Source: Calothrix anomala FACHB-343
GTDB lineage: Bacteria > Cyanobacteriota > Cyanobacteriia > Cyanobacteriales > Nostocaceae
Assembly: GCF_014696435.1 (NCBI RefSeq)
Contig: NZ_JACJQG010000006.1
Location: forward strand, 1-64,000
Length of the DNA stretch: 64,000 nucleotides
Reading direction: 5' to 3'
Positions 47,458 to 62,956 of this stretch are shown piece by piece. Both the position numbers and the translations under genes were made by a program. The notes below the pieces were generated by a model that had not been told where the DNA came from, searched no databases, and worked only from the letters and a program-made list of their open reading frames with translations. How positions within the stretch are numbered: the stretch's first letter is position 1; every line of letters starts with the position of its first letter.

Positions 47458-47559
47458 AATTCCTCGTTTCCTTAGGTTTTTAGTTGTCACTGTTACAGTG
47501 TTACCTTAGTCAACTGAGACTAGTACAGCATTAATAGAGTTTTAACTTTTAGCCTACTT

Positions 47560-48744
47560 TTACTCTGGCACAATTAAGCCTGTTAGCGGTTGAGAAATTT
47601 CTGTTTCTGTTAAGCCTTTGCTTTGAACTAACACCCCAAAGCCGCCTAATCCTAAAGGGTTGAGCAGTTCGTGGAGAGATTCTCGCCGCCGCAATAATTG
47701 AGAAATGGACTTTTCTTGCTCGGAAAGGGCAGAAATCCGGTTTCCCAACCCTAATGCCATTAAAAATAATCCCTGTTGAGTAAAACCTACTTTATCTAAT
47801 CCGCAGCGATCGCCCCATCGTTCCAAAGCGGTAAAATCAACATGGGCTGTAATATCCTGCGCTCCTATGTTGACATAAGGGTTGTCATGGTGGCGATGCT
47901 GATAATAGCACTGTAAGGTTCCTTGCGATCGCCTGGGGTTATAGTAACGGCTGGCAGGGTAGCCATAATCAATTGTTAACACATACCCGCACCGCAAGCG
48001 GTCTGCCACTATACTCAACCAGTCTAAAGCCGCTAAATTAATTTCACTTCGATACCCATCGGGGTAATTATTCTGGCGCAAATCAATGCCCACCAAATCC
48101 CAATATTCCGCCAACCTGGGGGTAGACAATTCCCCTGTAACTTCTACAAATCCTCCCCCCTTGTCCCCCTCATCCCCCTCACCGTGCGTTGTCACATAAA
48201 CCTCTTGCAACTCCCCCGCCTCAAAAATAAACTGATGCACTGGGAAAGCATCGACTAATTCATTAGAAAAAAAGCAACCTGTAATGGAATTAGATGCTAT
48301 GTCTGCTAAATTGCACCATTGCACGGAGAAATTTTGTAAGCGTTGCTGTTGTTCTTGTTTAAGCGTGGGTGATTTTTCAATAATTAAATATTTCAGTACC
48401 GCTAAAAATTCTGGGTGATGCTGTTGATAATAATTAAGAATATGCGATGCTAAAAGTCCTTGCCCTGCTCCCATTTCTACTAAATCAAAGCTTTCTGGTT
48501 TTCCTAAAATTTCCCACATTTGCAGAAATTGTACTGCTAGTAATTCGCCAAAGTCATTACCCAAATGCACAGATGTAAAAAAGTCACCACCTTTAAAACC
48601 TAGTTTATCTGCTTGACTGGAATAGTAACCATGTTCGGGATGGTATAAAACTGTATCCATATATTCAGCAAAAGTAATTCGCCTTTCGGGACTTGTAGCG
48701 ATACGATTAGCGATGACTGTATACAATGCGGAATTAAAACCCAT
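47560..48744 (-). CDS. MidA/NDUFAF7-type SAM-dependent methyltransferase
   Basis: This encodes 394 residues. The SAM-binding motif is FDLVEMGAGQGLLASHIL near 85-102. Other family blocks are FFSNELVDAFPVHQF (about 162-176) and YVLTIDYGYPASRYY (about 250-264), with DITAHVDFTAL near 300. In eukaryotes NDUFAF7/MidA dimethylates an arginine of a complex I subunit. Bacterial relatives may act on the equivalent NDH subunit, which is inference here. The frame is intact and length is normal for the family. Confidence 0.9.
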   Translation of the reverse strand: MGFNSALYTVIANRIATSPERRITFAEYMDTVLYHPEHGYYSSQADKLGFKGGDFFTSVHLGNDFGELLAVQFLQMWEILGKPESFDLVEMGAGQGLLASHILNYYQQHHPEFLAVLKYLIIEKSPTLKQEQQQRLQNFSVQWCNLADIASNSITGCFFSNELVDAFPVHQFIFEAGELQEVYVTTHGEGDEGDKGGGFVEVTGELSTPRLAEYWDLVGIDLRQNNYPDGYRSEINLAALDWLSIVADRLRCGYVLTIDYGYPASRYYNPRRSQGTLQCYYQHRHHDNPYVNIGAQDITAHVDFTALERWGDRCGLDKVGFTQQGLFLMALGLGNRISALSEQEKSISQLLRRRESLHELLNPLGLGGFGVLVQSKGLTETEISQPLTGLIVPE

Positions 48745-48808
48745 AAAATTTAGTGAAGAGTGAGACTTTAATTATCTATTAAAATAGGTCGGTGTAATTT
48801 AAGGTCAT

Positions 48809-48969
48809 GGGAGCATCCCAAATGTGCAAAAACGCCCTCACCCTATAAGGGTGGGGCTAGAAATACGAAGCCTGCCTTCGCAGGCTAAAAGTTTGATAGC
48901 CTGCGAAGGCAGGCTTTGTTGGTATAGCAATACCCTTCTAGGGTATTGCGTCAAAATTGGGATGCTCCC
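48809..48969. mobile_element. MITE copy 1 (161 bp) with 8-bp target duplication
   Basis: Terminal inverted repeats GGGAGCATCCCAA and TTGGGATGCTCCC bound the element. Both flanks read AAGGTCAT (48801-48808 and 48970-48977), an 8-bp target-site duplication. The interior has three hairpins (CCTCACCCTATAAGGGTGGGG; a GCCTGC..GCAGGC stem; CAATACCC...GGGTATTG) and no reading frame. It is nearly identical to the copy at 63174-63333, except that two loop segments are inverted. Confidence 0.9.
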
Positions 48970-49049
48970 AAGGTCATTTGTCATTTGTCATTTGTCATTA
49001 TACGTAGTTATTAAAAAATGCGATCGCTCTAGTATTTTTGGCTGATAAT

Positions 49050-49571
49050 CTAATCTAAACTCCATTTATCTGTAGCAGCGCGAGAACTAATTTGTGCTTC
49101 CGTTTCTGTCGCTGACTCTGAAGCAGATGTAGAGTTATTATCTTGCTTATCTACCTCTGGCTTTTGCATCGCAGAGGAAGTCTTAGCTTTTTTGCGATCC
49201 ACAACTTTGATATTTGAGACAGATGTATTTATCTGCTGTGGATTATTGCTGGAAATCTGGCTATTTACAGCAGATGATTGGCTATATGATATCTCTACAG
49301 CTAAAATAAAACGTCTTTTATAATGTTCCTTGATTCCTTGACACCATTCAGCAATAATATAATCTAAAATCTCATTGCCAATTGCAGATCTTGCCAGTTT
49401 TTCTTGTAAATTCTGGCGTAATCTTTCTCGATTAGCTAACCCTACCGCAGTTTGAGATGCAAAAAAGTCTTGTGGATGTTGCTCATAAAGCCCTGACAAA
49501 ACTATTGAGTCTATAATTACTTCCTTATTTCCTGCCAGAATATCTCGAATGATTAAAGTGTACTCAGGCAT
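49050..49571 (-). CDS. Protein of unknown function with a disordered tail
   Basis: This encodes 173 residues. The N-terminal 100 residues look folded and helical (RDILAGNKEVIIDSIVLSGL and HYKRRFILAVEISYS). The rest is Ser/Thr/Gln/Glu-rich and probably disordered. No domain, signal or TM segment was recognised. It lies divergent from the small lipoprotein gene, 102 bp away. Confidence 0.6.
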   Translation of the reverse strand: MPEYTLIIRDILAGNKEVIIDSIVLSGLYEQHPQDFFASQTAVGLANRERLRQNLQEKLARSAIGNEILDYIIAEWCQGIKEHYKRRFILAVEISYSQSSAVNSQISSNNPQQINTSVSNIKVVDRKKAKTSSAMQKPEVDKQDNNSTSASESATETEAQISSRAATDKWSLD

Positions 49572-49673
49572 TTTGATGATTTATTGTCAATTAAAGTTTA
49601 CTTAATTATACCTTGAAACGGTTATTGCTTTTAGCATAAAATTAAACCAAGATAATTAGTGATAATTACTGCC

Positions 49674-50147
49674 ATGTTTAAATTTAAATGGCAATATCTT
49701 TACTCGGTCATTTTTATAGCCAATACTGTTATATTATCTAGTTGCGGCGCTCAAGTCGAGAGTACGCGCGATCAGTGTCAAAGATTTACCCAAGTGCTGC
49801 AAACTGTTGTGGATGAAAATCAGAAATTCAAACAGATTAATCAGTTTGATAGAGATAGTCTTTTACAATTTATTAAAATTGCGACAAAATCAGCAGCAGC
49901 AATCGAAAATCAACCAGTATTTAATGACAAATTCCTGGTAAATTTTCAAAAGCACTTGATTAGCTTGTATAAAACATATAATTATGCTGGCTCAAATATT
50001 CTCAAACCATCTAATACAAATACCAAGGGTGAGACTAGATACAGTAGTTTGAATATCCTCAAACAATCTCTTGCTGAAGAGAAAGAAATATTAATATCTT
50101 TTAACGATTACTGCAATGCTCACGGATTCAAAATTAATAATATATAG
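49674..50147 (+). CDS. Small lipoprotein of unknown function
   Basis: The start at ATG 49674 (MFKFKWQYLYSVIFIANTVI) places a signal peptide before the lipobox LSSC. A GTG at 49659 is five codons further upstream. The mature part (about 130 residues) is helical with a Cys pair (DQCQRFTQVLQTVVDENQKF; later FNDYCNAHGF) that might form a disulfide. No family was recognised. It ends about 55 bp before a repeat cluster and is convergent with the vWA gene. Confidence 0.65.
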   Translation: MFKFKWQYLYSVIFIANTVILSSCGAQVESTRDQCQRFTQVLQTVVDENQKFKQINQFDRDSLLQFIKIATKSAAAIENQPVFNDKFLVNFQKHLISLYKTYNYAGSNILKPSNTNTKGETRYSSLNILKQSLAEEKEILISFNDYCNAHGFKINNI

Positions 50148-50203
50148 CAATCCTATTTTAGTTGTAAATAATATCGGTTTTGGCTATTGACTATTGACAA
50201 CTG

Positions 50204-50264
50204 TACGGGCGGGTTCACAAATATCATCACTGATTAACGATAATTCTCAATAAACCCGCCCCTA
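50204..50264. repeat. GGGCGGGTT...AACCCGCCC inverted repeat, copy 1
   Basis: GGGCGGGTTCACAAATATC opens and AAACCCGCCCCTAC closes a roughly 61-bp element. A second copy with the same ends lies at 59550-59612, inside the GTPase operon. Confidence 0.7.
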
Positions 50265-50265
50265 C

Positions 50266-50335
50266 TGACTATTGACTATTGACTATTGACTATTGACTAT
50301 TGACTATTGACTATTGACTATTGACTATTGACTAT
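50266..50335. repeat. Ten tandem copies of TGACTAT
   Basis: Exactly ten uninterrupted TGACTAT heptamers (70 bp) lie just past the stop of the vWA gene. It is the longest perfect heptamer array in the window. Confidence 0.9.
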
Positions 50336-50345
50336 TAACTCCACC

Positions 50346-51758
50346 TTAATTATTAATAGCACGTTCTGAATCAGATCTAAGTTGACTAGTCCATCGCCAG
50401 AAGATAATAAACCATGCGAGAGCAAAGGCGAAAGTCATGGCGATGATAATTAAATAATTATGCCAAGAAAGTGCAGCTTGAAACCCGATATTGTTGAGTC
50501 GAATTTGCTTTTGTGGGGAAGAAAATTTAAAATTTCGTTCTGGTGAAGTAACTGTGACGATAGTTTTATATTGTGTAGCTTGTTGCGCATCTGTTTGTTT
50601 ATAGGTTACTTCATACTCTCGCAGGGTTTTAAAGAAGGTAATTAAACTATTGGCGACATCCTGAGAATTTTTGGAGAATTTATATAATCCGCCGGTAGCT
50701 TTAGCAATATCATTGAGTCTTTGCTCATCTACAATAAATGTATTGATATCAGTAGTAGGTGGAGCATATTGATTATCTTTTCCGGCTATTAATTGCATAG
50801 CTTCAAAGATAAATTCTTCTGGTTTGAGTTTGGGTATTTTACATATACTGCTAACTTGATTAACGGTTAATTCATTATCTTTAAGGGGACATTTAGTGCG
50901 ATCGCGTAATTCTTGTAAATTTTCTCCGTAGCCCAGGGTATGAACTGTTACTTTGGTACTATATTGTTGTAAAGTCTTTCTCAAGCTCTCAAACTGCTGC
51001 GATTCTTGAGGACGATTAACTACATGGTAGCCATCTGATAGTAAAATTACTGCTAGTCGAGGTTTTATTTTGTCTTGATTTTGTGGTGAATTTCCCCCAG
51101 TACCTAAAAACTTTACAGCTTCTGCGACTGGTTGATAAAGATTAGTTGCAGCACAGACATTTTGCGCGGCTAGTTGATTAATTTCATTGTCCAGTTTAGT
51201 ATCTTTGATATCGCGAAAACTATTTTGAATTTTGTTTTGGCTGACATCATAAACTAGGGCACAATTTTGTTCGGATATGGAAAAGCCAAAAGGTACAATG
51301 GCAATTTCATAAGGTAAATTTTGCTTTCTGAGTTGTTGTAAAATTTCTCTAATTGCTTGGGTTGCACCATTAAGTTTTCTGACTTTGTTTGCATCTCGTT
51401 GCTGCATACTGCCACTCATATCCAGTAAAATTACAATTTTGGCAGGATCTGGTTGTGCAAGTTCTGGTGAGATGACTTGAGTGACAGGGAAACTCGCAGT
51501 TTTACCCTGTTCATCTATGGTTTTAATTTGAAAATTATCGCGCTTGAGGCTAGAAACAGGCTGATTTTCTTGATCTAATACTCTTACCTTCAAAATTACG
51601 CGATCGCCATCGGTTTGATAATTGAGAATTTCTACCGAACCATTAGCAGCTAACAAAGGTGTAGGTATCCAGGTTAAAAGCATAGCTAATAACCCCAGTT
51701 TGTTATTGCGGATCGAGGAAGCGATCGTAAAACACAAAGCGATAAAATTCTTCACCAT
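50346..51758 (-). CDS. Membrane-anchored von Willebrand factor A (vWA) domain protein
   Basis: This encodes 470 residues. The N-terminal signal peptide ends near TPLLAANG (about 40). A small beta domain (41-100) precedes the vWA domain, whose MIDAS motif DMSGS lies at 113-117 (VILLDMSGSM). The second metal site region lies around KPRLAVILLSDGYHVV. A C-terminal transmembrane helix (IIIAMTFAFALAWFIIFW) ends in a basic tail, so the vWA domain probably faces the periplasm. It is the last gene of the nine-gene operon and overlaps the preceding gene by 56 bp. Paired with the upstream AAA+ gene, it recalls MoxR-vWA systems. Confidence 0.87.
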   Translation of the reverse strand: MVKNFIALCFTIASSIRNNKLGLLAMLLTWIPTPLLAANGSVEILNYQTDGDRVILKVRVLDQENQPVSSLKRDNFQIKTIDEQGKTASFPVTQVISPELAQPDPAKIVILLDMSGSMQQRDANKVRKLNGATQAIREILQQLRKQNLPYEIAIVPFGFSISEQNCALVYDVSQNKIQNSFRDIKDTKLDNEINQLAAQNVCAATNLYQPVAEAVKFLGTGGNSPQNQDKIKPRLAVILLSDGYHVVNRPQESQQFESLRKTLQQYSTKVTVHTLGYGENLQELRDRTKCPLKDNELTVNQVSSICKIPKLKPEEFIFEAMQLIAGKDNQYAPPTTDINTFIVDEQRLNDIAKATGGLYKFSKNSQDVANSLITFFKTLREYEVTYKQTDAQQATQYKTIVTVTSPERNFKFSSPQKQIRLNNIGFQAALSWHNYLIIIAMTFAFALAWFIIFWRWTSQLRSDSERAINN

Positions 51759-52797
51759 CGGGATTTTTAAAGGTGATAACTTGATTATGCCAAAGATTGT
51801 ATTTAGAATCTGAAGATTTCTTTTTCGGTTGAGGATAAATTTCTACCACGCTTTGATGATGACAAGTAATTTCAGCGTAGGGAATTTTGACTTGAATTAC
51901 TGCACATTGGGGAGGTATTTTGGGGAGATAAATATCATCGTCAGTGCTACCACCAATTGTAATAATTCTCCCCGCAGGTAATTGAATTGATAACCCTTCT
52001 TCAATGACATCGGGTTCTTTGGCGTTTACTCCTGTGTTATCTGGTTCAATCACAAATTGAAATCCACCCTTGGGTTTTAATTTAGGGCGATCGCGTATTA
52101 CTCCAGTGAGTATTTCTTCTTTGATTACCTGGGGATTAATAGATTCTAATCCTTCACCTGCGCGTAACGCGACTTGAGAAGTTGGGGAAGTAGCAAAGCA
52201 GAGAAATGTTCCCAAAATCAAGCCAAAGGTTAAAAAACCAAATGGTTCGTGATATTCCTGGGGTAAACTGTTGTGAGTAAGTAACTTTTCGATAATTAAA
52301 GCCGCGCTAAACCCTGCAATACTCCCAAAAATAATAGTATTTTTAATCCTTTGATTTCCCCGTTCGGTTAAGCCTTCAATACTGCGCGATCGCCAGCTTA
52401 AACCTTCGCAAATTCCCGTACATAATCCCACAATACACCAAGCAACCCGTTTGATATTTGTGGCTGATAAGGGCGTAAATTCGTATAAAATAACCGTAGA
52501 AAATGCTGCAACAATACCAGCGATAAAACTCCATAAGATAGTTTTGATAAAATAGCTGCGTAATGTCTGAAAATTATTGCGATATCGGGTAGGGTTGCTG
52601 AGGAATATTTCTGTCGCTACCATAGTAATAGCGAAGAAAAATGCTAGCACAGGTAATAAAATAAAGTCTGGTCTAAATGGTAGAGTACCGCTACTGAGAA
52701 TTCGCACTATTCTCAAAATCATTTGACTAAAATTCCAACTGAGCAAGGCAGCAATAATACCCGATAAAATATATAGTATCAGTCTTTCTAGTCTCAC
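51703..52797 (-). CDS. Multi-TM protein with possible FHA-like C-terminal domain
   Basis: This encodes 364 residues from a GTG start with a good ribosome-binding site (AGAGGTA). At least six hydrophobic segments occupy about residues 1-205. The C-terminal domain (about 270-364: GRIITIGGSTDDDIYLPKIP, then VIQVKIPYAEIT) resembles a diverged forkhead-associated beta-sandwich but lacks the usual Gly-Arg and Ser-x-x-His residues, so phosphopeptide binding is doubtful. It lies 15 bp after the 756-residue gene and overlaps the vWA gene, so it belongs to the same operon and probably the same membrane complex. Confidence 0.7.
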   Translation of the reverse strand: MRLERLILYILSGIIAALLSWNFSQMILRIVRILSSGTLPFRPDFILLPVLAFFFAITMVATEIFLSNPTRYRNNFQTLRSYFIKTILWSFIAGIVAAFSTVILYEFTPLSATNIKRVAWCIVGLCTGICEGLSWRSRSIEGLTERGNQRIKNTIIFGSIAGFSAALIIEKLLTHNSLPQEYHEPFGFLTFGLILGTFLCFATSPTSQVALRAGEGLESINPQVIKEEILTGVIRDRPKLKPKGGFQFVIEPDNTGVNAKEPDVIEEGLSIQLPAGRIITIGGSTDDDIYLPKIPPQCAVIQVKIPYAEITCHHQSVVEIYPQPKKKSSDSKYNLWHNQVITFKNPDGEEFYRFVFYDRFLDPQ

Positions 52798-52812
52798 ATG
52801 CTACCTCTTTAA

Positions 52813-55083
52813 TTATTTGTTATCTAAATTTTGTAAACAAGCTTGAAAATCTTCTATTTGCGTTTTAATTGCACATTTTTCTAGAGGTGGTAAAATTTGT
52901 TGATAAGATTTTTTTTGTTTAAAAGATAATTGGAAGTAATTCATAATCTCTAAAACATATTGGTCTTTTTCTGGATAACTACTGTGTAAATACACTCTTG
53001 GATAAATAAACATATTCGCGACATCAGAATATATTTCGCTATTTCTAATCTGGCTTTTTTCCTCATCAGTTATTTGCTGTTTATTTAGGCCATTAATTAC
53101 ATTGATTTTTTCGTTAACAATTTTCTGAAGTTGCAATTCACATTTTTTTAGCTCTTGTTCTGATGACTCAGTACTACTATTATTAGTATCTATATTTTTA
53201 CAACTTTCAATAATTTCTTCTAAAGATAGGTTTGATGAACCTGACAAATTTTGCAATATGTAGTTTGATAAATTTAAATAAGCATAAAGTAATAAAGTTG
53301 GCATACTTAAGATAACAAGAAGCACTAACAGACGATTTCTCCATATTTTCAAACTATGTCCTCTTTCTTGAGGTTCTGGAATTCGCAAGATTGTTCTAAT
53401 TGTGCCTTTATGAAATGGATTTAGCTTAGAAAAAACAGGTGATGGAATGCTATCTTCACTATATTGATAGAAAATTGCTGATAATAAATTCACATTCAAA
53501 ATTTTTCGATCGTACTGATTAAATAAATATCTAATTGGATTCAGTTCCGTTTGCGCTATTTCCTGGAGTAAATTAGCTAGATTATTCAGCCCCAAATGAT
53601 TAATATTGGCTTTTTTTCCCGAAAGAATATCCCCAATTCGATTTTGATTTGGTTTTGGCTGATAATTCATCAACATATTCGCTAATCCGCTAAAAATATG
53701 GTTTGTAATCTCTCCGCCAAATTCTTCTGTAATCTCAGTGGTAATAGTACATTTTCTCTCTATATAAATTAAATAGTCTTTAACATATGGGTTAATTAAT
53801 TCTGCCCAAACATTGTTGCGATTTTCTGCTAACAACCATCGAGAATTATGATAAGTATTAATATCTCTTTTAAGTATTTGATAAAACAAAAATGAAATTC
53901 CATCATAAATTTGCTTTACCAAAACATGTTTTTGTTGCTCATGACAGTATTTAATTAATAAATTTTGAGTTTTGCAGGAAGCTTTAATATATTCTTGATT
54001 ATTTGATTTGCGCAACCAAGCTAACCATTCTCCAATTCTATCAGGAACTAAAATCGGCATTAGCGCATAATATTTCACAGACTCAATTATGGGATTTTCA
54101 TCTTGCTGAAGATGTTTGATATGTTGATTTTCGTCAACAAAAAATTTATTCCAATCTAAATCTGTTGCATTACACAATATTTCCACTAGCGCTTGGACTT
54201 TTTCAGTAATTATTTTCTCATAATTAGCCGATATCAAGTCATCTAATATTTTTTCAATTGATTTTTCATCTCTAGTTAAATAATCTTTATCTACTCTTTG
54301 AACTATTTGTATAGGTGCAGGATTGACTTCAGCATCACCCACATCATTCCTAGCTAATTCACGTTCAATAGTTTGTTTAGCGGCTTCATTTTCACACCAA
54401 ATAGCTATATACATGGAAGGAAAATTTAATTTGCGCACATTCCAAGCCCATGCTAGGGGAATTCCCATTTTTTTTGCTGTTTGCGCAGCTTGATAATGTA
54501 ATTCTATGAGGCGATCGCTCTGATAATCAGCTATGGTGAGAATCTGGGGATAAACAGGATAATCTTGTGGTTGTTCTGGATGATAATTTTCAGTATCTTC
54601 TATATATTCTTTACAAACTAACTCTTCTCCTGTAAAAGACTCCGGGTTCATGTCAAATACCAAGGGATTCTTGCTCCACCAATTGAGTAAAGTGGCGACA
54701 CCATCCATTGCTGGTAAATGTTGGTTAATCATTGAATATGTGTCTAGCCAAAAGTAGCGATAGCCCACAACTCCATCCCTACCTCTATTATCTTTACCTA
54801 AAGAATTAGCAACTGCTAAAACACAGTAACGATTATCGATAACCCGCGCAATTAAAGCTACTTGCTCCTCCGCAGGTGCAAAACCAGTGGGAATCCCAAA
54901 AATATTTTGGTTATTGTTAATAAACTGGCGAATAGGACTAGGTATTTCTTCATTATAATTAGAACGATCGATAGCATTACCAAAACCGCCAGAAATCCAC
55001 CGTTCATTTTCCAATACTTCAGTAAAACCGCGAGAAAATTCGTATATTTCCACTTCTCCACTGAGGATATTAAAAGTAGACAT
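52813..55083 (-). CDS. 756-residue one-TM protein of the GTPase operon, possible GAP1-like
   Basis: The N-terminal part (about 1-150) has a folded module with SGEVEIYEFSRGFTEVLE, then ALIARVIDN and NSLGKDNRGRDGVVGYRYFW. This recalls GTPase-associated protein 1 (GAP1)-type N-terminal domains of bacterial conflict operons, by recollection only. The middle (about 250-600) is helical. A single transmembrane helix lies at about 608-630 (RLLVLLVILSMPTLLLYAYL), followed by a Cys-containing helical tail that would be extracytoplasmic. The ribosome-binding site AGAGGTT precedes the ATG at 55083. It sits 19 bp after the third GTPase gene. Confidence 0.7.
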   Translation of the reverse strand: MSTFNILSGEVEIYEFSRGFTEVLENERWISGGFGNAIDRSNYNEEIPSPIRQFINNNQNIFGIPTGFAPAEEQVALIARVIDNRYCVLAVANSLGKDNRGRDGVVGYRYFWLDTYSMINQHLPAMDGVATLLNWWSKNPLVFDMNPESFTGEELVCKEYIEDTENYHPEQPQDYPVYPQILTIADYQSDRLIELHYQAAQTAKKMGIPLAWAWNVRKLNFPSMYIAIWCENEAAKQTIERELARNDVGDAEVNPAPIQIVQRVDKDYLTRDEKSIEKILDDLISANYEKIITEKVQALVEILCNATDLDWNKFFVDENQHIKHLQQDENPIIESVKYYALMPILVPDRIGEWLAWLRKSNNQEYIKASCKTQNLLIKYCHEQQKHVLVKQIYDGISFLFYQILKRDINTYHNSRWLLAENRNNVWAELINPYVKDYLIYIERKCTITTEITEEFGGEITNHIFSGLANMLMNYQPKPNQNRIGDILSGKKANINHLGLNNLANLLQEIAQTELNPIRYLFNQYDRKILNVNLLSAIFYQYSEDSIPSPVFSKLNPFHKGTIRTILRIPEPQERGHSLKIWRNRLLVLLVILSMPTLLLYAYLNLSNYILQNLSGSSNLSLEEIIESCKNIDTNNSSTESSEQELKKCELQLQKIVNEKINVINGLNKQQITDEEKSQIRNSEIYSDVANMFIYPRVYLHSSYPEKDQYVLEIMNYFQLSFKQKKSYQQILPPLEKCAIKTQIEDFQACLQNLDNK

Positions 55084-55102
55084 AATTTAACCTCTAATAT
55101 GG

Positions 55103-55984
55103 TTATCGCAATTGACGATCGTCTTTACCTGTTTGCAACCAATAGATAGGAGCAACTAAACCAAAAGCTTGCCAAGCGTCGGGTTTGCTGAGAGTATATG
55201 CTTTACTTCCCTGAATTGGGCGACAATTGGGTTGAAGTGTATCACCAATAAAGCCAAATGCAGAACACATAAAAAAGTTGAGAGAACAACCCCAACTTTG
55301 TTGCCAATTTTGTAATATAGCGAAAGTTCGAGCAAATTTAAGTTCGGCAAATTCTTGAGGTTTGTAGCGATAAACATCATTTTGTTCGCCTTTGGTAAAC
55401 ACAATAGCGATGCGATGTCTGCTTAATCTGCGGCGATTTTTTTGTGTGCCGATAATGTTATTGAGTTCTTTTTGTAAGTTAGTAATTGCTTGGGCATAAT
55501 CTTTATCTCTTTTGGGTGTAGTGCTATCAAGTACGAGCATTAAACCGACTACAGAAGCACAATCATTAATTGCATCTTCGCTGACGTTACCAGCAATTAA
55601 GTTTTCAATTAATTCGCCTGTGGGTGCTGTAATAGATATATTTAATCTGAGGGGTTTATTTTGAATTGTGGCAATTGGATTTAAGAAAAATCTGGGCTTC
55701 AGCTTGATGGAAAATTTACAGGAATCTGCATATTCGCTAGCAGAAATTACTAGCCCATTTTTTAAGACATTCTCGGCATTATTTTGGACATATTGCGCAC
55801 CATAGCCGTAGGGATCTACAGACATAATTCGCCCTTCTAAATAGTTCTGAGCTTCCCAACAAATAGATAAGGCGGCGAGATAAGATGTTTTACCGACATC
55901 ACGCGCGCCAATCATGCGGATATCACCGCCTGGTAGGTTAATGGGAGCAGAATTGAAGATGTTAAAAAATTTAAAGAAATTCAT
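55103..55984 (-). CDS. P-loop GTPase-like protein 3 of the operon
   Basis: The start ATG 55984 has an AGGAGA ribosome-binding site, giving 293 residues; the frame is open to 56026. Walker A is GARDVGKT at 26-33. The G3 position reads SITAPTGELIENL, where the usual DxxG is changed to APTG. The guanine-specificity position reads VFTKGEQND, with NKxD changed to TKGE. Both fit a diverged GTPase (double-GTPase or TRAFAC-like conflict family). It overlaps the preceding GTPase gene by 14 bp. Nucleotide specificity is uncertain given the motif changes. Confidence 0.8.
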   Translation of the reverse strand: MNFFKFFNIFNSAPINLPGGDIRMIGARDVGKTSYLAALSICWEAQNYLEGRIMSVDPYGYGAQYVQNNAENVLKNGLVISASEYADSCKFSIKLKPRFFLNPIATIQNKPLRLNISITAPTGELIENLIAGNVSEDAINDCASVVGLMLVLDSTTPKRDKDYAQAITNLQKELNNIIGTQKNRRRLSRHRIAIVFTKGEQNDVYRYKPQEFAELKFARTFAILQNWQQSWGCSLNFFMCSAFGFIGDTLQPNCRPIQGSKAYTLSKPDAWQAFGLVAPIYWLQTGKDDRQLR

Positions 55985-56861
55985 TGTGTAGATTTTCTCC
56001 TGTACCCAACCAGTAAATTGGTTCAATTACGCCATAAGGATGCCAATTATCAAAGTCTCGCAGGCGAGCGCGATACTCGGCATGAGTACCATCATCTTCA
56101 GTATAAAATCGATTGGGACGAGGATCGTATTTGCCTAATATGCCATAGGCAGAACAAGCGAAAAAGTTAACTTTTTTCTTTAAACGATTTTTTAATAAAT
56201 TATAAGTTTTATGTAATCTAATCTTAAATAAATCTGCTTCTGGATCGAGACGCCCTCCCCAAATTTCGCCGCGTTCGCATTTAGCCATGACTACAGCGAC
56301 TCTGAGAGTTTGAATAGACCTTAATTTACTATTTTCATCGATGCGATCGCACAACCATTGAAAAACTTTAAAATATTCTTCGTCTTTCCCCGTTTGCCAT
56401 TCTGTTAACATAAACATCCAGCGATTCATGGTGAAACATTGACTGAGAAAGTCTTGAACATCTTCCGCTAGTTGTTTTTGTTCTTGGGGAGATTTGAGGC
56501 TTGCAGGGTTAATATGAGCCTGAAAAATTCTGTCAAACCGCTCTCCGGAAAGATCCTTGGCGCTAAGTTGGATTTTGTGGGCTTGACGAAAGCGTTTAGC
56601 ATTCTCAATTGCAATCTCAAAGCGATAATCGTATTCTTCGTTTAAATCTGTGGGGGGAACGGCTTTTTTTTGTTGAATAAAGTTGCTAATTATATCTTCT
56701 AGTTTGTGGATTTTTAATCCTCCTGCTTTTACAGCACCGCTATTTTTTGCTCTTAATCCAGGGGCGAGTAATGAGGCGAGGTAAGTTGTTTTTCCGGAAG
56801 CTCTCGGCCCCATAATACACATTTGTACGGGTATAGATTTAATTAGAGTTTTCGCCTTCAT
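55971..56861 (-). CDS. P-loop GTPase-like protein 2 of the operon
   Basis: ATG 56861 forms an ATGA overlap with the stop of the preceding gene, which decides the start (296 residues). An upstream in-frame ATG at 56909 would overlap by 52 bp. Walker A is GPRASGKT at 18-25. The G3-like motif is SAKDLSGERFDRIF. The base-recognition position reads VMAKCERGE, where NKxD would be expected. The conserved tail WHPYGVIEPIYWLGTGE is nearly repeated in GTPase 3 (FGLVAPIYWLQTG), showing that the two are paralogues within the operon. Confidence 0.82.
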   Translation of the reverse strand: MKAKTLIKSIPVQMCIMGPRASGKTTYLASLLAPGLRAKNSGAVKAGGLKIHKLEDIISNFIQQKKAVPPTDLNEEYDYRFEIAIENAKRFRQAHKIQLSAKDLSGERFDRIFQAHINPASLKSPQEQKQLAEDVQDFLSQCFTMNRWMFMLTEWQTGKDEEYFKVFQWLCDRIDENSKLRSIQTLRVAVVMAKCERGEIWGGRLDPEADLFKIRLHKTYNLLKNRLKKKVNFFACSAYGILGKYDPRPNRFYTEDDGTHAEYRARLRDFDNWHPYGVIEPIYWLGTGENLHNEFL

Positions 56862-57667
56862 CTCCCTACCTCTGCATCTGCACTTAAATAGGTTCCTAAA
56901 CTTAACCAAGGAATTTCTAATAAGTTTCTATCTTTTTTAGTAGTGATAAAAAAGCTTAATTTAGAAGCGCCAACTTGATTTTTATTAAAATCTTTAATTA
57001 CATCTCTCGCTACAGCAAAGTAGCGGGTTCTAATTCTGTCTAAATAAGTGCCAAAATCATTATTACCTGCTGGATTATATCGCCATCTTGCACTTTCTTC
57101 TTGGTAATTACAAAAAAGGTCTGCTTTGTGCAGACAGATAAAGAAATGTTTAGCAGATGGACAATTATTTTTGAGAATTTCTAAATTTCGTTGGAGATTT
57201 TTCACCCAGACATGACAGGGATATAAATCATCTTGTTTATTGATTTTATCTAGAGAATTGGCTGCTGCAACTAAATATTCTTCTCTAACTAACTCTTGGT
57301 AGGGATGTAAAAGTAACATAATATAACGTGCCTGGGCAATCTTTTCCATAAAGTCTTGGTAGGCACTAGGAAATTGCTTTTGCGGACTGTCTGTAGCTTT
57401 AATATCTCCCCAAAATTCTCCGCGAGTATCGATTAAATCCACTGTGATTTCTCGCGGTCTGGGTAGCCTTAAATAGATGGAAAGGAAATGTAAGTTAATC
57501 GGATTTTCTGTGGGCAATACTTGTCCGTGGGGGCTAAGTTGTTCTTGTAGTCGGCGACAATCATCGCTATCAACAACAACATATTTTTCTTGTGTCGATG
57601 GTTCGCATAATCCTAAAATCATGCTACTTTTGCCCACTGCTCTATCACCAATGACTATCACACTCAT
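56858..57667 (-). CDS. P-loop GTPase-like protein 1 of the operon
   Basis: This encodes 269 residues. Walker A is GDRAVGKS at 7-14. The G3 motif DLIDTRGEFWGD (about 81-92) is close to the classical DxxG. The recognition position reads ICLHKADLF, with His in place of Asn in NKxD. A C-terminal region (KLSFFITTKKDRNLLEIPWL) continues the fold. It starts in an ATGA overlap with the radical-SAM gene and ends in an ATGA overlap with GTPase 2, a strong sign of translational coupling and complex formation. Confidence 0.83.
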   Translation of the reverse strand: MSVIVIGDRAVGKSSMILGLCEPSTQEKYVVVDSDDCRRLQEQLSPHGQVLPTENPINLHFLSIYLRLPRPREITVDLIDTRGEFWGDIKATDSPQKQFPSAYQDFMEKIAQARYIMLLLHPYQELVREEYLVAAANSLDKINKQDDLYPCHVWVKNLQRNLEILKNNCPSAKHFFICLHKADLFCNYQEESARWRYNPAGNNDFGTYLDRIRTRYFAVARDVIKDFNKNQVGASKLSFFITTKKDRNLLEIPWLSLGTYLSADAEVGR

Positions 57668-58251
57668 AAGATTTTATCTTCTGTTTCTACGCGATCGCCT
57701 GGAATTGGAAACCCTGTATAAGTCAAAATGGCATCATTAATAATCCATTCTTGACGGGGAATATTTTTTAAGTCTGCTGGGGTAATTCTGCCTGATAAAA
57801 AGTGTAGTTGTTGATTATGGGAACCTCTCAAGGTATCGTCACTTAACTGTTGTTGAATGAAAAGACCATCGATTAATAAATCTATAGATTGTAAGAGATG
57901 AATTGCGCCTTTAATTTGTCCAGATTTTAATTGTTCTAAGCGGTATCCTGTCCAACAAACTACGGTTTTACCAGCAGATTGTACGAGACTTGCTAACTCA
58001 GCTAAGGCGACAGCTTGGGCGAAGGGTTCGCCACCGGAGAAGGAAACGCCAGCTAAATCAGGTAGTTGTTGGAAAACTTGCCAAACATCATCAACAGTAA
58101 CTACTTGATTGAGGCGAAATTGGAGAAAGTCGGGATTTTGACAACCAGGACAGCGAAAGGGACAACCTTGCACCCATAACACCATTCTGGTTCCGGGGCC
58201 ATTAGCGGAAGAACGAGGTAACCAAGCAGCGAGATTTAGAAGTTTGGTCAT
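57664..58251 (-). CDS. Radical-SAM activase-like protein (NrdG/PflA type)
   Basis: This encodes 195 residues. The 4Fe-4S/SAM motif is C-x3-C-x2-C (GCPFRCPGCQNPDF, Cys30, 34, 37), followed by GVSFSGGEPFAQA (about 68-80). The size and N-terminus (LLNLAAWLPRSSANGPGTRM) match activases of anaerobic ribonucleotide reductase, but no glycyl-radical enzyme gene is in the window. It may modify a protein or peptide of this operon instead. Its ATG lies inside a TCATTTG heptamer array, so the leader is made of repeats. It is coupled by ATGA overlap to GTPase 1. Confidence 0.85.
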   Translation of the reverse strand: MTKLLNLAAWLPRSSANGPGTRMVLWVQGCPFRCPGCQNPDFLQFRLNQVVTVDDVWQVFQQLPDLAGVSFSGGEPFAQAVALAELASLVQSAGKTVVCWTGYRLEQLKSGQIKGAIHLLQSIDLLIDGLFIQQQLSDDTLRGSHNQQLHFLSGRITPADLKNIPRQEWIINDAILTYTGFPIPGDRVETEDKIL

Positions 58252-58333
58252 TTGTCATTTGTCATTTGTCATTGGTCATTTGTCATTGGTCATTTGTCAT
58301 TTGTCCTCCTTGTCCTCCTTGTCCTCCTTGTCC
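58252..58333. repeat. Heptamer/octamer tandem repeats in the radical-SAM leader
   Basis: Runs of GTCATTT/GTCATTG and then four TTGTCCTCC-like units lie between the coiled-coil gene and the radical-SAM gene, inside the operon. Confidence 0.8.
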
Positions 58334-59473
58334 TTAATAAGTCTCTAGTTCTGGGCGGCGTTGAGGTGGTTCGATTTCTAAGGTGGTTGTTTCTGGGGCT
58401 GAATATATTTGTCTGTATTCTTCGGGGATGGGTTGTCCGTCTAGGCTATCCCACTCTAGGTAATATCCTTGTTCTTGGAATATTTGCAGGGCTTGTCCGG
58501 TTCTGGCTGCGCAGTTGCTAGTCTCTTCATGGGGGCCTTTTAAGTCTATTTGCTGTCCGGTAAATTGCACTCGCATGACTGTGTTGACGGCTTCGCCTGT
58601 TTGTTGGTTTTCATGGGTTTCGATTTCAACAACAACGTCGCCATCGTCAATACCAATAATTCTGGCTGTATAGTCTACGTCTGGGTTTTGCCATGCTTTG
58701 ACTAAGTTTTCTGCGGCTTCCCAAACGCGATCTATTTGTAATTCGGCGGTGGTAATTTGTTGATGAATGGCTAACAAATCTGCATCCCTGATGGGGCGAT
58801 CGCGCTGATGTATGCGTTCAATTGTGCTGGCTATGTTTTGGGCGATCGCTTTTGGTAACCGTTCGGCGATCGCATCTAGTCTGGTTTGAGCATATTCTGC
58901 TGCAGATTGCAGTTGCGATCGCAGTTGTTTAAATGCTTCAATTCGGGCATTATCTAAGGCTTGCAGATATGCTTCGGCTGCTGGTAAATCTGAGCTATCC
59001 AGTGCTTGTTCTACATTTTGCCAAGCTTGTAATACGGTGGCTGCATCTAATAATTCGCTTTCAATTAAATTTTGATACTCTTTTTTTATCCGTGGTAACC
59101 GTGATTTTTGTTCTCTAATCTTGATTTGTAAATCTTTTTTGATTAAATCTACATCATTATTACTCAGTGTATTTACTAGCCTTGGCTTTTGATTTATTTG
59201 CGGTAATTGCACCATCGTCTTAGTTTGAGAATAAGAACGTCGCGCTGCTATAATTTGGCGCTGGATTTCTGCTTCTTGCTGTAAGGCTTTCTCTGCTTCT
59301 CTTTTAATTCTTTCCTGATAGGCTTTCGCCGCTTTCGCCGCCATCACTACTGCTGTTCCTGTCGCCATTACACCAGAAGCGACAGTAAAACCAGCTACCG
59401 CTACCCCTGCTAACAATGCTTGGGTTGCTAGTGGCGCAATACCTGATACTGTATATGCTTTTGTGCCACTCAT
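58334..59473 (-). CDS. Coiled-coil protein of the GTPase operon, unknown function
   Basis: The ATG at 59473 has a strong ribosome-binding site (GGAGGTT), giving 379 residues; the frame is open 14 codons upstream. A Gly/Ala-rich hydrophobic stretch (about 11-48, GIAPLATQALLAGVAVAGFT) could insert in or lie on a membrane. A long charged coiled coil follows to about 265. A C-terminal beta domain (VDYTARIIGIDDGDVVVEIE and later LQIFQEQGYYLEWDSLDGQP) completes it. No named family was recognised. It separates the AAA+ gene from the radical-SAM gene. Confidence 0.72.
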   Translation of the reverse strand: MSGTKAYTVSGIAPLATQALLAGVAVAGFTVASGVMATGTAVVMAAKAAKAYQERIKREAEKALQQEAEIQRQIIAARRSYSQTKTMVQLPQINQKPRLVNTLSNNDVDLIKKDLQIKIREQKSRLPRIKKEYQNLIESELLDAATVLQAWQNVEQALDSSDLPAAEAYLQALDNARIEAFKQLRSQLQSAAEYAQTRLDAIAERLPKAIAQNIASTIERIHQRDRPIRDADLLAIHQQITTAELQIDRVWEAAENLVKAWQNPDVDYTARIIGIDDGDVVVEIETHENQQTGEAVNTVMRVQFTGQQIDLKGPHEETSNCAARTGQALQIFQEQGYYLEWDSLDGQPIPEEYRQIYSAPETTTLEIEPPQRRPELETY

Positions 59474-59549
59474 TGTTGGAACCTCCAGATTTAAGTAAGT
59501 CGGTGGAAAAACCAAACTATGTACTTTACGTAAATTTGCTTGAAACCCT

Positions 59550-59612
59550 GTAAGGGCGGGTTCACAAATATCCTCAAATATGCATGATTATCTCGCATAA
59601 ACCCGCCCCTAC
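59550..59612. repeat. GGGCGGGTT...AACCCGCCC inverted repeat, copy 2
   Basis: This has the same ends as the copy at 50204-50264, including GGGCGGGTTCACAAATATC. It lies in the 204-bp spacer between the AAA+ gene and the coiled-coil gene. Confidence 0.7.
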
Positions 59613-59677
59613 TGACAAATGACAGCCCCCACCAGTTATGTTTAATTGCACCACCCTACTTAAAGAAATATTTATGT

Positions 59678-61345
59678 TTATAAAATTAATTGATTTAAAA
59701 AACCTGGTTCATCAACGGAAGCCGATAAGCCTCCGCCATCTGACAAAACTTTGAGATACTTTTGCAGCAATATTTGCATCTTTTCAGTTCGATATTGCGG
59801 GTTGATTTTTCCTAGAGCCTGTTCCCAATTACTATCAGTGAGTGTACCTTTAAAACCTGCTAAATATTTTGTTTCTTTAACTAATTTATCTAATTCAGCC
59901 CCAGAAAAACCTGCTGTTTGCTTGACTAATTCTGCTAAGGTAAAGTTATCAATGGGTGATAATTTATGGCTGTGGATACATTTTTGAATAATTTCTCCTC
60001 GTTCTTTGGTGTTGGGTGGCATAACTATAAATATTTCATCGAAACGACCTGCACGAAATAGTTCGGCTGGTAACTTGTCTCGGTCGTTAGAAGTGGCAAT
60101 GAAAAAGATAGGATATTGATGATCGTTTAACCATGATAAAAAAGTCCCAAATTGACGGGTACTCACTCCAGAACTGTCAGTTCCCGTGCCGGCAAAAGCC
60201 TTTTCAATTTCATCCATAAATAGAATATTCGGCGCAGAAGCTTCAATGGCTCGTAAAGCTTGATATGTGTTACTTTCCGATTCACCGACGAATTTAGATT
60301 GCAGACGGGAAATTTCAAAATTGATTTGGGGAACGCACCATTCTTGCGCGATCGCTCTGGCGATGAAAGTTTTACCACAGCCGGGAAACCCTTCTAGTAA
60401 AATCGCTCTAGGGCGCATTTGCGGTTCTAAATCTTGCTCGAACCAAATTTTGCGACTCTCTATCCAAGCTTTAATATTTTCTAGTCCGCCAACAGCTTTT
60501 AGCCCGTCTCCTTGAGGAGAATAATATTCTAAAACACCTGTTTTTCTAATTTCTTGTTTTTTAACTTCAAGTAATAATTTACCTGTGGCTTCTGGCTGGT
60601 TCCACAACTTGCGCGTAGTCACTAACATTGCGGTTTGAATTGCTGCTTGTAGTGGTATACCTTGAGCCAGTTCTGCTAATCGTTTAGCCTCTGTTTCTTG
60701 TAATTCATAATTCTCGGCTGCCAGACTAAAAACGTTATCGTAAAGCTCTCTACCTGTGGGTAAAGCTAAATCAAGAATATGTACGTGATTGCGCAAAATT
60801 GGCGGAATTGACCAGTCAGCACCAATGACAATTAATGTCATATAAGGGCGCGGTCTACTATCTTCAATATCTAATAGTAATTCCTTGAGTCTACGGGCAA
60901 TCAAATAGTCATCAGTACGAATTAAAGCCGACCAATCAGGCAGAATATAAGTATGTTGTATATCGGGATTTTTGATAACACAATTTTGTAATTGTTGTTG
61001 TAAAATATTGAGAGCGTGAATTACCGCATGGGTATTTTCTGCTGGTGGATTAGCTAACTGTTGCCACTGGGTTGCTGCTGAATCTTGCTTTGCTAATAAA
61101 CGTTTTTGGAAACCAGTTTTACTATCCCAACGGCAAATTTCTCCTGACTTGATTTTAAGCTCGTCTATGCATCCATCGTGGGAGCGAATAGCGCATCTGA
61201 CAGCCCGATTTTCTTCCGCAGAGCGCAAAAATACTAAAGGATAACGGGAGCGTAACAGATCCCGGAGTTCTCGCAAACATTTTTCATAGGGTTGATCGGC
61301 GGAAATATCGTCGTCATCTGGCTGGAAGCGATCGTTGCTATTCAT
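59678..61345 (-). CDS. AAA+ ATPase, Ycf46-like
   Basis: This encodes 555 residues. The N-terminal domain (about 15-240) begins CLRELRDLLRSRYPLVFLRS, as in Ycf46-type proteins. The AAA module follows: Walker A EGFPGCGKTFIARA (about 319-332), Walker B NILFMDEIEKAFAG (about 376-389) with the catalytic Asp-Glu, sensor FFIATSNDRDKLP, and arginine-finger region LFRAGRFDEIF. A C-terminal helical lid follows. Such ATPases remodel or unfold protein partners. It is the first gene of the operon (promoter in 61346-61486) and is functionally comparable to MoxR partners of vWA proteins, although it is not a MoxR by sequence. Confidence 0.88.
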   Translation of the reverse strand: MNSNDRFQPDDDDISADQPYEKCLRELRDLLRSRYPLVFLRSAEENRAVRCAIRSHDGCIDELKIKSGEICRWDSKTGFQKRLLAKQDSAATQWQQLANPPAENTHAVIHALNILQQQLQNCVIKNPDIQHTYILPDWSALIRTDDYLIARRLKELLLDIEDSRPRPYMTLIVIGADWSIPPILRNHVHILDLALPTGRELYDNVFSLAAENYELQETEAKRLAELAQGIPLQAAIQTAMLVTTRKLWNQPEATGKLLLEVKKQEIRKTGVLEYYSPQGDGLKAVGGLENIKAWIESRKIWFEQDLEPQMRPRAILLEGFPGCGKTFIARAIAQEWCVPQINFEISRLQSKFVGESESNTYQALRAIEASAPNILFMDEIEKAFAGTGTDSSGVSTRQFGTFLSWLNDHQYPIFFIATSNDRDKLPAELFRAGRFDEIFIVMPPNTKERGEIIQKCIHSHKLSPIDNFTLAELVKQTAGFSGAELDKLVKETKYLAGFKGTLTDSNWEQALGKINPQYRTEKMQILLQKYLKVLSDGGGLSASVDEPGFLNQLIL

Positions 61346-61486
61346 GATTCTTGTATCAAAAGTTAAAGATACGAAGATTCAGCAGTTTTACTTAAGTATA
61401 CTACAATGTAGGATGCTGAGGTGAGGAAAAACAGAAGCCGAAATTGGTAAATCCCTATTCCCTATTCCCTCGCCTATGCGATCGCA

Positions 61487-62956
61487 TTAACAACGCTGCA
61501 ACTGTGCTAATAACACCACAATTTCATCAATAGCTTGGCGTAATTCGCTGGCGGGGCGATCGCTTTGATTCACCATAATACTAAAAACTACAGGTTCATA
61601 CTTAGCATTATTCACATATCCAGCTAAAGAAACTGCACCAGTTAATGTCCCTGTTTTTGCTTGCACAATTCCCTCAGCCGGAGTGTTGCGGAAGCGATTT
61701 TTTAAAGTACCAGTCTTACCGGCAACAGGTAAAGATGCACGATAAATATTAGCTGCTGGTGTTGTCGCCATTAAGCGCAAAGTTTGCACCAAAGCTTCTG
61801 CTGATAATAAATTACGCCGCGATAAACCAGAGCCATCTACTAAAGAGTAACTTGTCGGATCGACTCCCAATTTAGTTAAACTTGCCTTTAAAACTTCTAA
61901 ACCAATATTCGCAGTAATTTTATTTTGCACTCTTGGTTGTTTCACCGCTAATGCTCGCAGCAATGCTTCGGCATATAAATTATTACTATTAACATTTACC
62001 TCTGTTACTAACTGTGATAAAGGAGGCGAATCAATAGCAGCAATTTCTTGTTGATTATTGCCACCATTAAATACTAAAGTTTGTCCTAAACTAATTTTTT
62101 CTGTTGCTAAAATTGTCCGGAAGCGCCGCAAAAAATAATAATTGGGATCGACTACAGGTAAGGTAACTAAATAAGGTTGAGAATTTTCTGTTAGCTGTCC
62201 TTGAATACGCAGAACTGTACCTGTTAAATCGCGAGTAACATCAATATAATTGGTTTGATTTTTGCTCACAGTTGTTGACTGATTAACAATCCGCCAGCGT
62301 CTTTCCTCATTGCTATCAGTCCAGGCTATTTGTAAGGGTTTACCTAAAGCTTGTGGTGTAAGTTTAAAGCTAAAAATATTTTCATTTAAAATAAAACTAC
62401 TAACAGGTGCGCCATAATCTGATTGCACATCTTCCCATTGCCAAGTAGGGTTAACTATATCTCCTTGAATATAGCTATCATCAGCAATCAATTGCTGAAT
62501 TTGGGTAATACCTTTTTGTCTTAATTGTTTTGCTAAGGCTTGCAATTGAGTATCACCTAAACTGGGATCTCCTCTACCCACAACACGCAAGACTCCATTA
62601 GAATTTTGATAAATAGAGGTGCGGATGCGAAAGTTTGCACCTAACTCTTGTAATGCGGCAGCAGTGGTCAGTAATTTTGTATTAGAAGCTGGTGTAAAGT
62701 ATTTTTGAGCATCTCGACTGTAGAGAGTTTGTCCAGATGACAAAGGTTGAATTAAGATTCCCCAGCGCACGCGATTAAATGAGGGGCGATTGATGATAGT
62801 CTCTATAGAATTTCCCAGTTGTGCGGGACAAATTTGTTTTGTGGTGGTAGTTGGTGGTGCTGGTGTGGGGGTTTGGGCTTTAGTTGGTTGCTGGGTAATA
62901 CCTAGTTGGGTAGTGAGAAGCAGTAGCGTTAAGCCAATGGTAGATTTTTGAGTCAT
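61487..62956 (-). CDS. dacB: D-alanyl-D-alanine carboxypeptidase/endopeptidase, PBP4 (DacB) type
   Basis: This enzyme trims or cleaves peptidoglycan cross-links in the periplasm. The 489 residues have a signal peptide (LTLLLLTTQLGITQQPTKAQ) and a Pro/Thr-rich linker. The S13 motifs follow: SxxK in FTPASNTKLLTTAAALQ (about 88-104), SxN in VNVNSNNLYAEALLR, and KTG in IVQAKTGTLTGAVSL near 445. Length fits the family. It is 141 bp from the AAA+ gene in the same orientation, but with an intervening promoter-like AT-rich region, so it is not clearly part of the same operon. Confidence 0.93.
   Translation of the reverse strand: MTQKSTIGLTLLLLTTQLGITQQPTKAQTPTPAPPTTTTKQICPAQLGNSIETIINRPSFNRVRWGILIQPLSSGQTLYSRDAQKYFTPASNTKLLTTAAALQELGANFRIRTSIYQNSNGVLRVVGRGDPSLGDTQLQALAKQLRQKGITQIQQLIADDSYIQGDIVNPTWQWEDVQSDYGAPVSSFILNENIFSFKLTPQALGKPLQIAWTDSNEERRWRIVNQSTTVSKNQTNYIDVTRDLTGTVLRIQGQLTENSQPYLVTLPVVDPNYYFLRRFRTILATEKISLGQTLVFNGGNNQQEIAAIDSPPLSQLVTEVNVNSNNLYAEALLRALAVKQPRVQNKITANIGLEVLKASLTKLGVDPTSYSLVDGSGLSRRNLLSAEALVQTLRLMATTPAANIYRASLPVAGKTGTLKNRFRNTPAEGIVQAKTGTLTGAVSLAGYVNNAKYEPVVFSIMVNQSDRPASELRQAIDEIVVLLAQLQRC

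Follow-up and report, generated by a model that had tools for sequence, protein, structure and literature searches.

Conflict systems built around DO-GTPases are among the closest described relatives of the locus treated here, a cluster of nine genes in the cyanobacterium Calothrix anomala FACHB-343. In the account by Kaur et al. (2020, PMC7159879), the definition of DO-GTPases includes a conserved Glu in the Walker B region, a constant core joined to a fast-changing part is taken as a mark of conflict systems, and the phyla listed for GAP1-N2 do not include cyanobacteria. The same text places a radical S-adenosylmethionine (radical-SAM) gene in FtsH-type vWA ternary systems, where the authors propose modification of a nearby-encoded peptide. 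DO-GTPases are also named within phage shock protein (PSP) operons, and operons of vWA, GTPase, OmpA and kinase genes with FtsZl1 are described by Makarova and Koonin (2010, PMC2875224).

The stretch analysed, hereafter the window, comprises the first 64,000 nucleotides of contig NZ_JACJQG010000006.1, and its minus strand is occupied from 50,346 to 61,345 by nine long co-directional open reading frames (ORFs). We give about even credence to the explanation that they encode an accessory trans-envelope switch of the DO-GTPase class, in which the GTPases are set by a large membrane protein (GAPL) and governed by a lineage-specific control cassette, with an anti-invader conflict response or, failing that, envelope-stress control as output. 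The cluster adds a cyanobacterial branch to a class that, in the literature searched, has so far rested on comparative genomics, and it ties GTPase switching to radical-SAM chemistry.

Conserved core, two lineages and distribution

The conserved core of the system is GTPase1-GTPase2-GTPase3-GAPL-TM/FHA-vWA, where TM/FHA denotes a multi-transmembrane (TM) protein with an FHA-like domain. Among loci with enough downstream DNA it retains GTPase2 in 68/81, GTPase3 in 62/76, GAPL in 58/66, FHA in 48/61 and vWA in 47/61, the misses including broken or interrupted loci. Since the same gene order recurs in distant cyanobacteria, chance assembly is untenable, and conservation of the order outside this genome, on which the sequence-only reading of the stretch had depended, is thus borne out.

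In the window the core is preceded, from 5′ to 3′, by genes for an AAA+ protein, a coiled-coil protein (CC) and a radical-SAM protein. This gives the nine co-oriented genes in the order that the earlier reading had named. The features are:

59678..61345, minus strand: AAA+ ATPase, 555 aa (Pfam AAA, E=2.5e-27)
58334..59473, minus strand: coiled-coil protein CC, 379 aa, ATG at 59,473 (conserved C-terminal domain, invariant Cys321)
57664..58251, minus strand: small radical-SAM protein, 195 aa (Fer4_12 4.4e-33, Radical_SAM 1.8e-7)
56858..57667, minus strand: GTPase1, 269 aa (10-member alignment; G1 GDRAVGKS, G3 DLIDTRGE, G4 HKAD)
55971..56861, minus strand: GTPase2, 296 aa, DO-GTPase family (DO-GTPase1 28.3-28.5 bits, cutoff 27)
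55103..55984, minus strand: GTPase3, 293 aa, a degenerate DO-GTPase without the G3 Asp (G3 ITAPTGEL; DO-GTPase2 sub-threshold at E=0.011)
52813..55083, minus strand: GAPL, large one-TM protein, 756 aa (TM 585-603 after KIWRNR)
51703..52797, minus strand: TM/FHA, multi-TM protein ending in an FHA-like domain (weak FHA matches; five to six hydrophobic segments)
50346..51758, minus strand: vWA protein, C-terminal TM 436-454 (VWA_2 3.9e-6; MIDAS motif DMSGSM conserved)
49659..50147, plus strand: lipoprotein-like ORF within the unit on the opposite strand (same-place homolog only in L024, the closest relative, 2 matches)
49050..49571, minus strand: EYTL, small conserved protein, 173 aa, downstream of vWA (common to both lineages)
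48803..61487, no strand: island without counterpart in the closest congener (flanks 46,196-48,802 at 96% and 61,488-63,168 at 94% identity)

The ATGA overlaps that had been claimed were read from the DNA at the radical-SAM/GTPase1 junction (57,664-57,667) and at the GTPase1/GTPase2 junction (GTPase2 ATG at 56,861). GTPase2 and GTPase3 overlap by 14 nt (GTPase3 ATG at 55,984) and the TM/FHA and vWA genes by 56 nt; wider gaps lie between AAA+ and coiled-coil (204 nt) and between coiled-coil and radical-SAM (82 nt). A promoter scan stayed at chance level, with 46 promoter-like sites against 40.2 expected. The proposed nine-gene operon holds for its nine members and proves too short in extent, as EYTL (49,050-49,571, minus strand) recurs in relatives, counts with the conserved core and lengthens the unit; EYTL profiles seeded from either lineage (A or B) collected 41 locus proteins each. 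Short tandem repeats occupy two of the gaps, after vWA (50262-50339) and before radical-SAM (58252-58333).

CC and radical-SAM genes stand together in 12 of 82 loci (the window, L024 and L035-L114), which we call lineage A and to which the window belongs. AAA+ accompanies them in 10/12, the other two loci ending early. The usual order in this lineage is CC-radicalSAM-GTPase1-2-3-GAPL-FHA-vWA-EYTL-AAA, so that most of these loci end with AAA+; the window and L024 begin with it. Without CC and radical-SAM, AAA+ occurs in L042 and L052, and L100 carries a longer AAA+ of another kind. In a GTPase tree of 80 rows, made by a quick method with SH-aLRT (the approximate likelihood-ratio test of Shimodaira-Hasegawa type) as its only support measure, a branch with a value of 100 separates the 11 lineage-A rows and L042 from all others.

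An EYTL-vWA2-FHA cassette was found in 18 of the 68 other tree rows; the remaining 50 do not show it, in many cases because the locus ends first. On annotated plasmids the vWA2-FHA cassette is followed by PP2C and kinase genes, one pair of which was checked with Pfam; PP2C is known only from these plasmids and that single check. Genes for vWA, PP2C and a kinase also make up the 'TerY-P' triad, on which a literature search yielded nothing of use. No locus among those listed holds both the lineage-A AAA+ and the vWA2/FHA cassette. Genes for SH3, serine hydrolase, ARC6-like and lipoprotein products also neighbour the other lineage. Both lineages occur in one strain in Dolichospermum ST_sed8 (L035, L079) and in Anabaena FACHB-1237 (L040, L070). 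Because a complete control cassette separates the lineages and both occur in these two strains, one switch under phospho-control can be compared directly with its counterpart under radical-SAM/AAA+ control.

The distribution of the cluster is that of an accessory, horizontally moving element: patchy, plasmid-borne and absent from all eight congeners searched. A single-sequence GAPL query of genome contigs returned nothing and GTPase1 was used instead. A pattern scan based on its alignment, with one genome per species, gave 90 relatives, of which 80 were kept, all 80 with cyanobacterial titles; distant relatives elsewhere could be missed, since the patterns were built from cyanobacterial proteins. 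GAPL was found in 10/59 related genomes and in none of eight congeners, and GTPase1 in 23/292 cyanobacterial genomes, two of them with short weak matches only. GTPase2-like genes are carried by 8 of 72,556 plasmid records, all cyanobacterial and several of them near-identical plasmids, and six of the eight are mobilizable or conjugative. GTPase2 had no match in 50,697 phage records, and no GTPase1 relative was found in viral contigs.

In the closest congener the genes flanking the island are 95-96% identical and lie about 1.2 kb apart, and between them only a heptamer repeat matches positions 48,803-61,487, gain here and loss there being not distinguishable. The other seven congeners are uninformative because the flanking genes lie apart there. 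The closest congener has a different single gene at this site (L172, about 2685-3934), glycosyltransferase-like by eye. Near the left island border, window positions 48835-48975 hold about 140 bp with inverted GGGAGCATCCCAA/TTGGGATGCTCCC ends and an inner AGCCTGCGAAGGCAGGCT hairpin, by eye resembling a miniature inverted-repeat transposable element.

On one Tolypothrix plasmid (L144:1-8897), MoxR, GUN4, SUMF1 and caspase genes lie just upstream of the GTPase operon. This is the make-up given for cyanobacterial VMAP systems by Kaur et al. (PMC7159879), and as an anecdote the neighbourhood favours defence.

GTPases and membrane partners

By their sequences the three window GTPases are paralogs of the DO-GTPase family and not members of housekeeping families, as the earlier reading had required. 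GTPase2 of the window exceeds the Pfam DO-GTPase1 cutoff (28.3 against 27 bits), and its relatives, taken with those of GTPase3, matched DO-GTPase2 in 19/19 and DO-GTPase1 in 17/19 cases (E<=0.1). The window GTPase1 and GTPase3 fall below every Pfam cutoff; GTPase1 relatives matched DO-GTPase1 in 4/10 and DO-GTPase2 in 4/10, the window member being in neither set. The GE of the Walker B region is kept in all three (DTRGE, DLSGE and PTGE). A PDB search found no relative of GTPase2 or GTPase3.

The motifs also differ between the lineages. The G4 of GTPase1 is [LI]HKAD in all 12 lineage-A rows of the motif table, and outside lineage A its commonest forms all start with Asn (66 listed of 67 rows). 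The G3 Asp of GTPase3 is lost in 8 of the 9 lineage-A rows listed (of 12), which include one, from L039, that is a fourth GTPase, and is kept in all 54 of the other rows listed (of 61). Two lineage-A loci (L039:9055-9906 and L064:6099-7040) carry this fourth, GTPase3-like gene, with radical-SAM on one side and GTPase1 on the other; the radical-SAM gene of L039 reads as unknown bases.

The membrane link that had been proposed is supported by hydrophobic segments in GAPL, TM/FHA and vWA. GAPL was correctly described as a 756-residue protein with one TM: a single strong segment spans residues 585-603 after KIWRNR. From hydropathy and charge, its N-terminal 580 or so residues are predicted to be cytoplasmic and its C-terminal 150 or so periplasmic; vWA is predicted to be a secreted or periplasmic domain with a C-terminal TM, and TM/FHA has five or six segments and a probably cytoplasmic FHA-like end. 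With these predicted topologies the machine would span the inner membrane. The FHA-like assignment of the sequence-only reading is weakly supported: Ki-67 FHA chains match TM/FHA at E=0.015 and 0.018, and sub-threshold Pfam FHA matches came from eight of the 44 members, with E=0.019 at best. The window member has no Pfam FHA match, and the canonical phosphopeptide-binding Arg was not seen in the alignment.

No GAP1-type component was detected. The window GAPL has no Pfam match, and no GAP1 model was among the matches of first 12 and then 50 GAPL relatives (E<=0.05, without profile-profile comparison). GAP1-N2 was found in 0/194 cyanobacterial genomes, with C. glutamicum as positive control, and a GAP1 sequence in 0/3 actinobacterial plasmids; a GASH or FNIII component had no Pfam match in the nine window proteins. 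As the GTPases are of the DO family and GAP1 is undetected, the system falls outside the published GAP1-N1/N2 definition. Seven of 50 GAPL relatives contain PG_binding_1, and a PDB search with GAPL gave DotF alone (E=0.095).

GAPL is also the variable member of the set. Between the window and L024 it is 47% identical (56% over residues 1-573 and 37% over 572-753), against 70-83% for the other eight proteins. Across 293 locus pairs (GTPase1 identity 55-95%, all core genes complete; loci recur between pairs, making them non-independent) the GAPL tail has the lowest identity of the core in 288. Median identities were 43.2 for GAPL residues 1-480 and 27.7 after 540, and 60.5 for GTPase1, 59.2 for GTPase2, 60.5 for GTPase3, 63.3 for FHA and 57.0 for vWA. 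Extra genes with only the helical C-terminal GAPL region accompany a full-length GAPL in L027, L033, L058, L061, L077 and L107.

Several observations weigh against a GAPL-set switch with a conflict output. No toxin, nuclease or pore domain was found by Pfam in the window genes, a GAP1 protein was not detected in the system, and PADLOC recognized no system in the nine proteins, giving AAA+ cross-matches to IetA and others besides further weak matches. The low identity of the GAPL tail may partly reflect an unconstrained linker, the branch leading to the window and L024 is long and was flagged by the tree program, and the envelope-type neighbours of the other lineage are as compatible with wall or stress functions as with defence.

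These neighbours bear on a second explanation, the main rival and in our view possible, that the locus encodes a machine for envelope maintenance or membrane remodelling and not immunity, with a logic akin to that of FtsZl1-vWA-GTPase-OmpA operons and PSP-associated DO-GTPases. PG_binding_1 in GAPL, the predicted periplasmic vWA and the SH3-like, ARC6-like and serine-hydrolase genes of the other lineage are in line with it, as are the vWA/GTPase/OmpA/kinase operons (Makarova and Koonin 2010, PMC2875224) and the DO-GTPase of PSP operons. It is harder to reconcile with the lack of a tubulin- or FtsZ-like gene among the nine, with a cluster that is patchy, plasmid-borne and found in 0/8 congeners, and with the variability of the GAPL tail.

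Control cassette of lineage A

The AAA+ protein of the window is 80% identical to that of L024 and 65% to that of L026, and scores 1046 bits with its profile, compared with 245.5 for the best of 14 paralogous matches elsewhere in the genome. Of the three top-scoring paralogs, two adjoin MSHF-type, DUF1257-like genes, and one lies near a DUF2997 gene. This neighbourhood and the label of the earlier reading are the grounds on which we call the protein Ycf46-like. Its best models are PF00004 AAA and CDC48/PAN-like, and no MoxR or FtsH model was among them.

CC has no Pfam family above cutoff. Its Cys321 is invariant across an 11-member alignment, and the motif C[AS]xRT is present in 14 of the 15 CC ORFs listed (two loci twice), the sole exception being truncated. 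The CC profile gave four strong matches in 292 cyanobacterial genomes, all four adjoining GTPase1, and one weak partial match. A shared SC..T-like motif had prompted a comparison of the CC C-terminus with DUF2997; direct homology was rejected, as the score against 19 DUF2997 sequences lay among the controls and 10/100 and 47/300 column shuffles were as good.

It is improbable that the DO-GTPase core and the AAA+/coiled-coil/radical-SAM genes are unrelated units that merely adjoin here, the latter forming an operon of their own. The changing place of AAA+ (which opens the cluster in the window and L024 and closes it in most lineage-A loci), its presence in L042 without CC and radical-SAM, and radical-SAM/AAA+ pairs standing alone on unrelated plasmids would all fit such an arrangement, but the strong CC matches lie beside GTPases in 4/4 cases, radical-SAM and GTPase1 share an ATGA overlap, and the module is limited to one GTPase clade.

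The radical-SAM protein carries the motifs CxxxCxxC (CPFRCPGC) and GGE. That it is an ordinary NrdG, the activase of anaerobic ribonucleotide reductase, found here by chance was rejected as very improbable: NrdG leads its NCBIfam matches (E=1.2e-29), but the score of 103.2 bits is below the cutoff of 126.1, just two of the eight genomes tested that carry the gene (one being the genome of the window) have a glycyl-radical domain, and none of the eight contains NrdD, the class III ribonucleotide reductase (controls positive in 6/14), which makes the NrdG identity unlikely. We infer that CC, at or near its invariant cysteine, is the likeliest target of the enzyme. A radical-SAM protein lacking its expected glycyl-radical partner and encoded beside an invariant-cysteine protein amounts to a testable substrate prediction.

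Relatives of the radical-SAM protein were found on plasmids in 177 records. In the five genera examined, namely Leisingera, Photobacterium, Polaromonas, Moellerella and Acinetobacter (L222, L223, L224/L228, L225 and L229), the five-gene order is AAA_11/12 helicase-PIN-hypothetical-AAA+-radicalSAM. The helicase matches PADLOC's MkoA (7.6e-102) and the PIN protein weakly MkoB (1.4e-4), and the operon looks like a Mokosh-related defence variant. In L229 the stretch after it (6558-8113) holds another small gene of the AAA family and a further radical-SAM gene. In the hypothetical, coiled-coil protein of these operons, an invariant cysteine marks the C-terminal domain in 5/5. Against the CC C-terminus 2/300 column shuffles were as good (hhalign probability 3.4%), and against DUF2997 0/300 (19%); with hhalign probabilities this low, the likeness of this protein to DUF2997 and, less, to CC is only a lead.

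A more far-reaching view, which we think unlikely, is that radical-SAM, AAA+ and a CC with invariant cysteine form a portable module that regulates unrelated conflict machines, cyanobacterial DO-GTPase switches as well as proteobacterial Mokosh-like helicase/PIN operons, the radical-SAM enzyme modifying at or near the cysteine and so licensing AAA+ remodelling. The five-gene order in five genera, the MkoA match and the alignment of CC C-termini (2/300) suggested it. The AAA+ of the helicase operons counts against it, being missed by the lineage-A profile and belonging to another branch (AAA_2), as does the hhalign value of 3.4%. On a Paenibacillus plasmid (L226:4721-7588) the order is AAA+-DUF1257-DUF2997-4Fe-4S radical-SAM; here the lineage-A profile recognizes the AAA+ (E=5.4e-56), while the radical-SAM protein next to it is of the same family (2.2e-28).

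Proposed mechanism and comparison with known systems

An envelope-spanning GTPase timer is the most likely overall reading of the locus. In such a timer sensing, whether of the envelope or of an invader at the wall, would be the task of the vWA domain and the tail of GAPL, while the cytoplasmic part of GAPL would set the GTP state of GTPase1 and GTPase2. GTPase3 would be a largely degenerate partner, and TM/FHA would link the membrane to the GTPases. In many relatives the vWA2-FHA-PP2C-kinase cassette may give phospho-control; in lineage A, assembly and reset would fall to CC, once radical-SAM modification near its invariant cysteine has licensed it, and to AAA+, the putative remodeller of the vWA and TM partners in the earlier reading. 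The output could be a conflict (anti-invader) response, or else envelope-stress control.

The locus shares with the FtsZl1-vWA-GTPase-OmpA-kinase operons (PMC2875224) a membrane vWA, a divergent GTPase, and peptidoglycan-binding and kinase genes, and differs from them in having no tubulin- or FtsZ-like match in the nine window proteins. As in the Paenibacillus cluster, AAA+ and radical-SAM proteins of related families are encoded side by side, with the coiled-coil protein here in place of DUF1257/DUF2997. AAA+, vWA and radical-SAM also occur together in the FtsH type of the MoxR-vWA ternary systems (PMC7159879). In contrast to these, the AAA+ here is neither MoxR nor FtsH by its best models, the GTPases are central and no peptide effector was seen. 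The remark of the sequence-only reading that a radical-SAM enzyme is unusual in such company is thus qualified, given these FtsH-type systems and the pairs with AAA+ on unrelated plasmids; it stands for the combination with DO-GTPases, since no published description of radical-SAM, AAA+ and DO-GTPase together was found in a literature search that mostly excluded subscription papers and preprints.

The proposed relation to nucleoside triphosphate-dependent conflict systems (Kaur et al. 2020, PMC7159879) is upheld. The locus differs from the DO-GTPase/GAP1-N2 systems of that account in that no GAP1 or FNIII was detected, in having three GTPases, an FHA-TM protein and EYTL, and, in lineage A, in its AAA+/coiled-coil/radical-SAM set. 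With those systems it has in common several DO-family GTPases, a large partner with a C-terminal TM, vWA and TM components and wall-binding domains, and the kinase-PP2C-vWA theme is matched by the kinase/PP2C/vWA set of the sister lineage. As in the DO-GTPase/GAP1 conflict systems, a constant core is combined with a highly variable component, here the GAPL tail.

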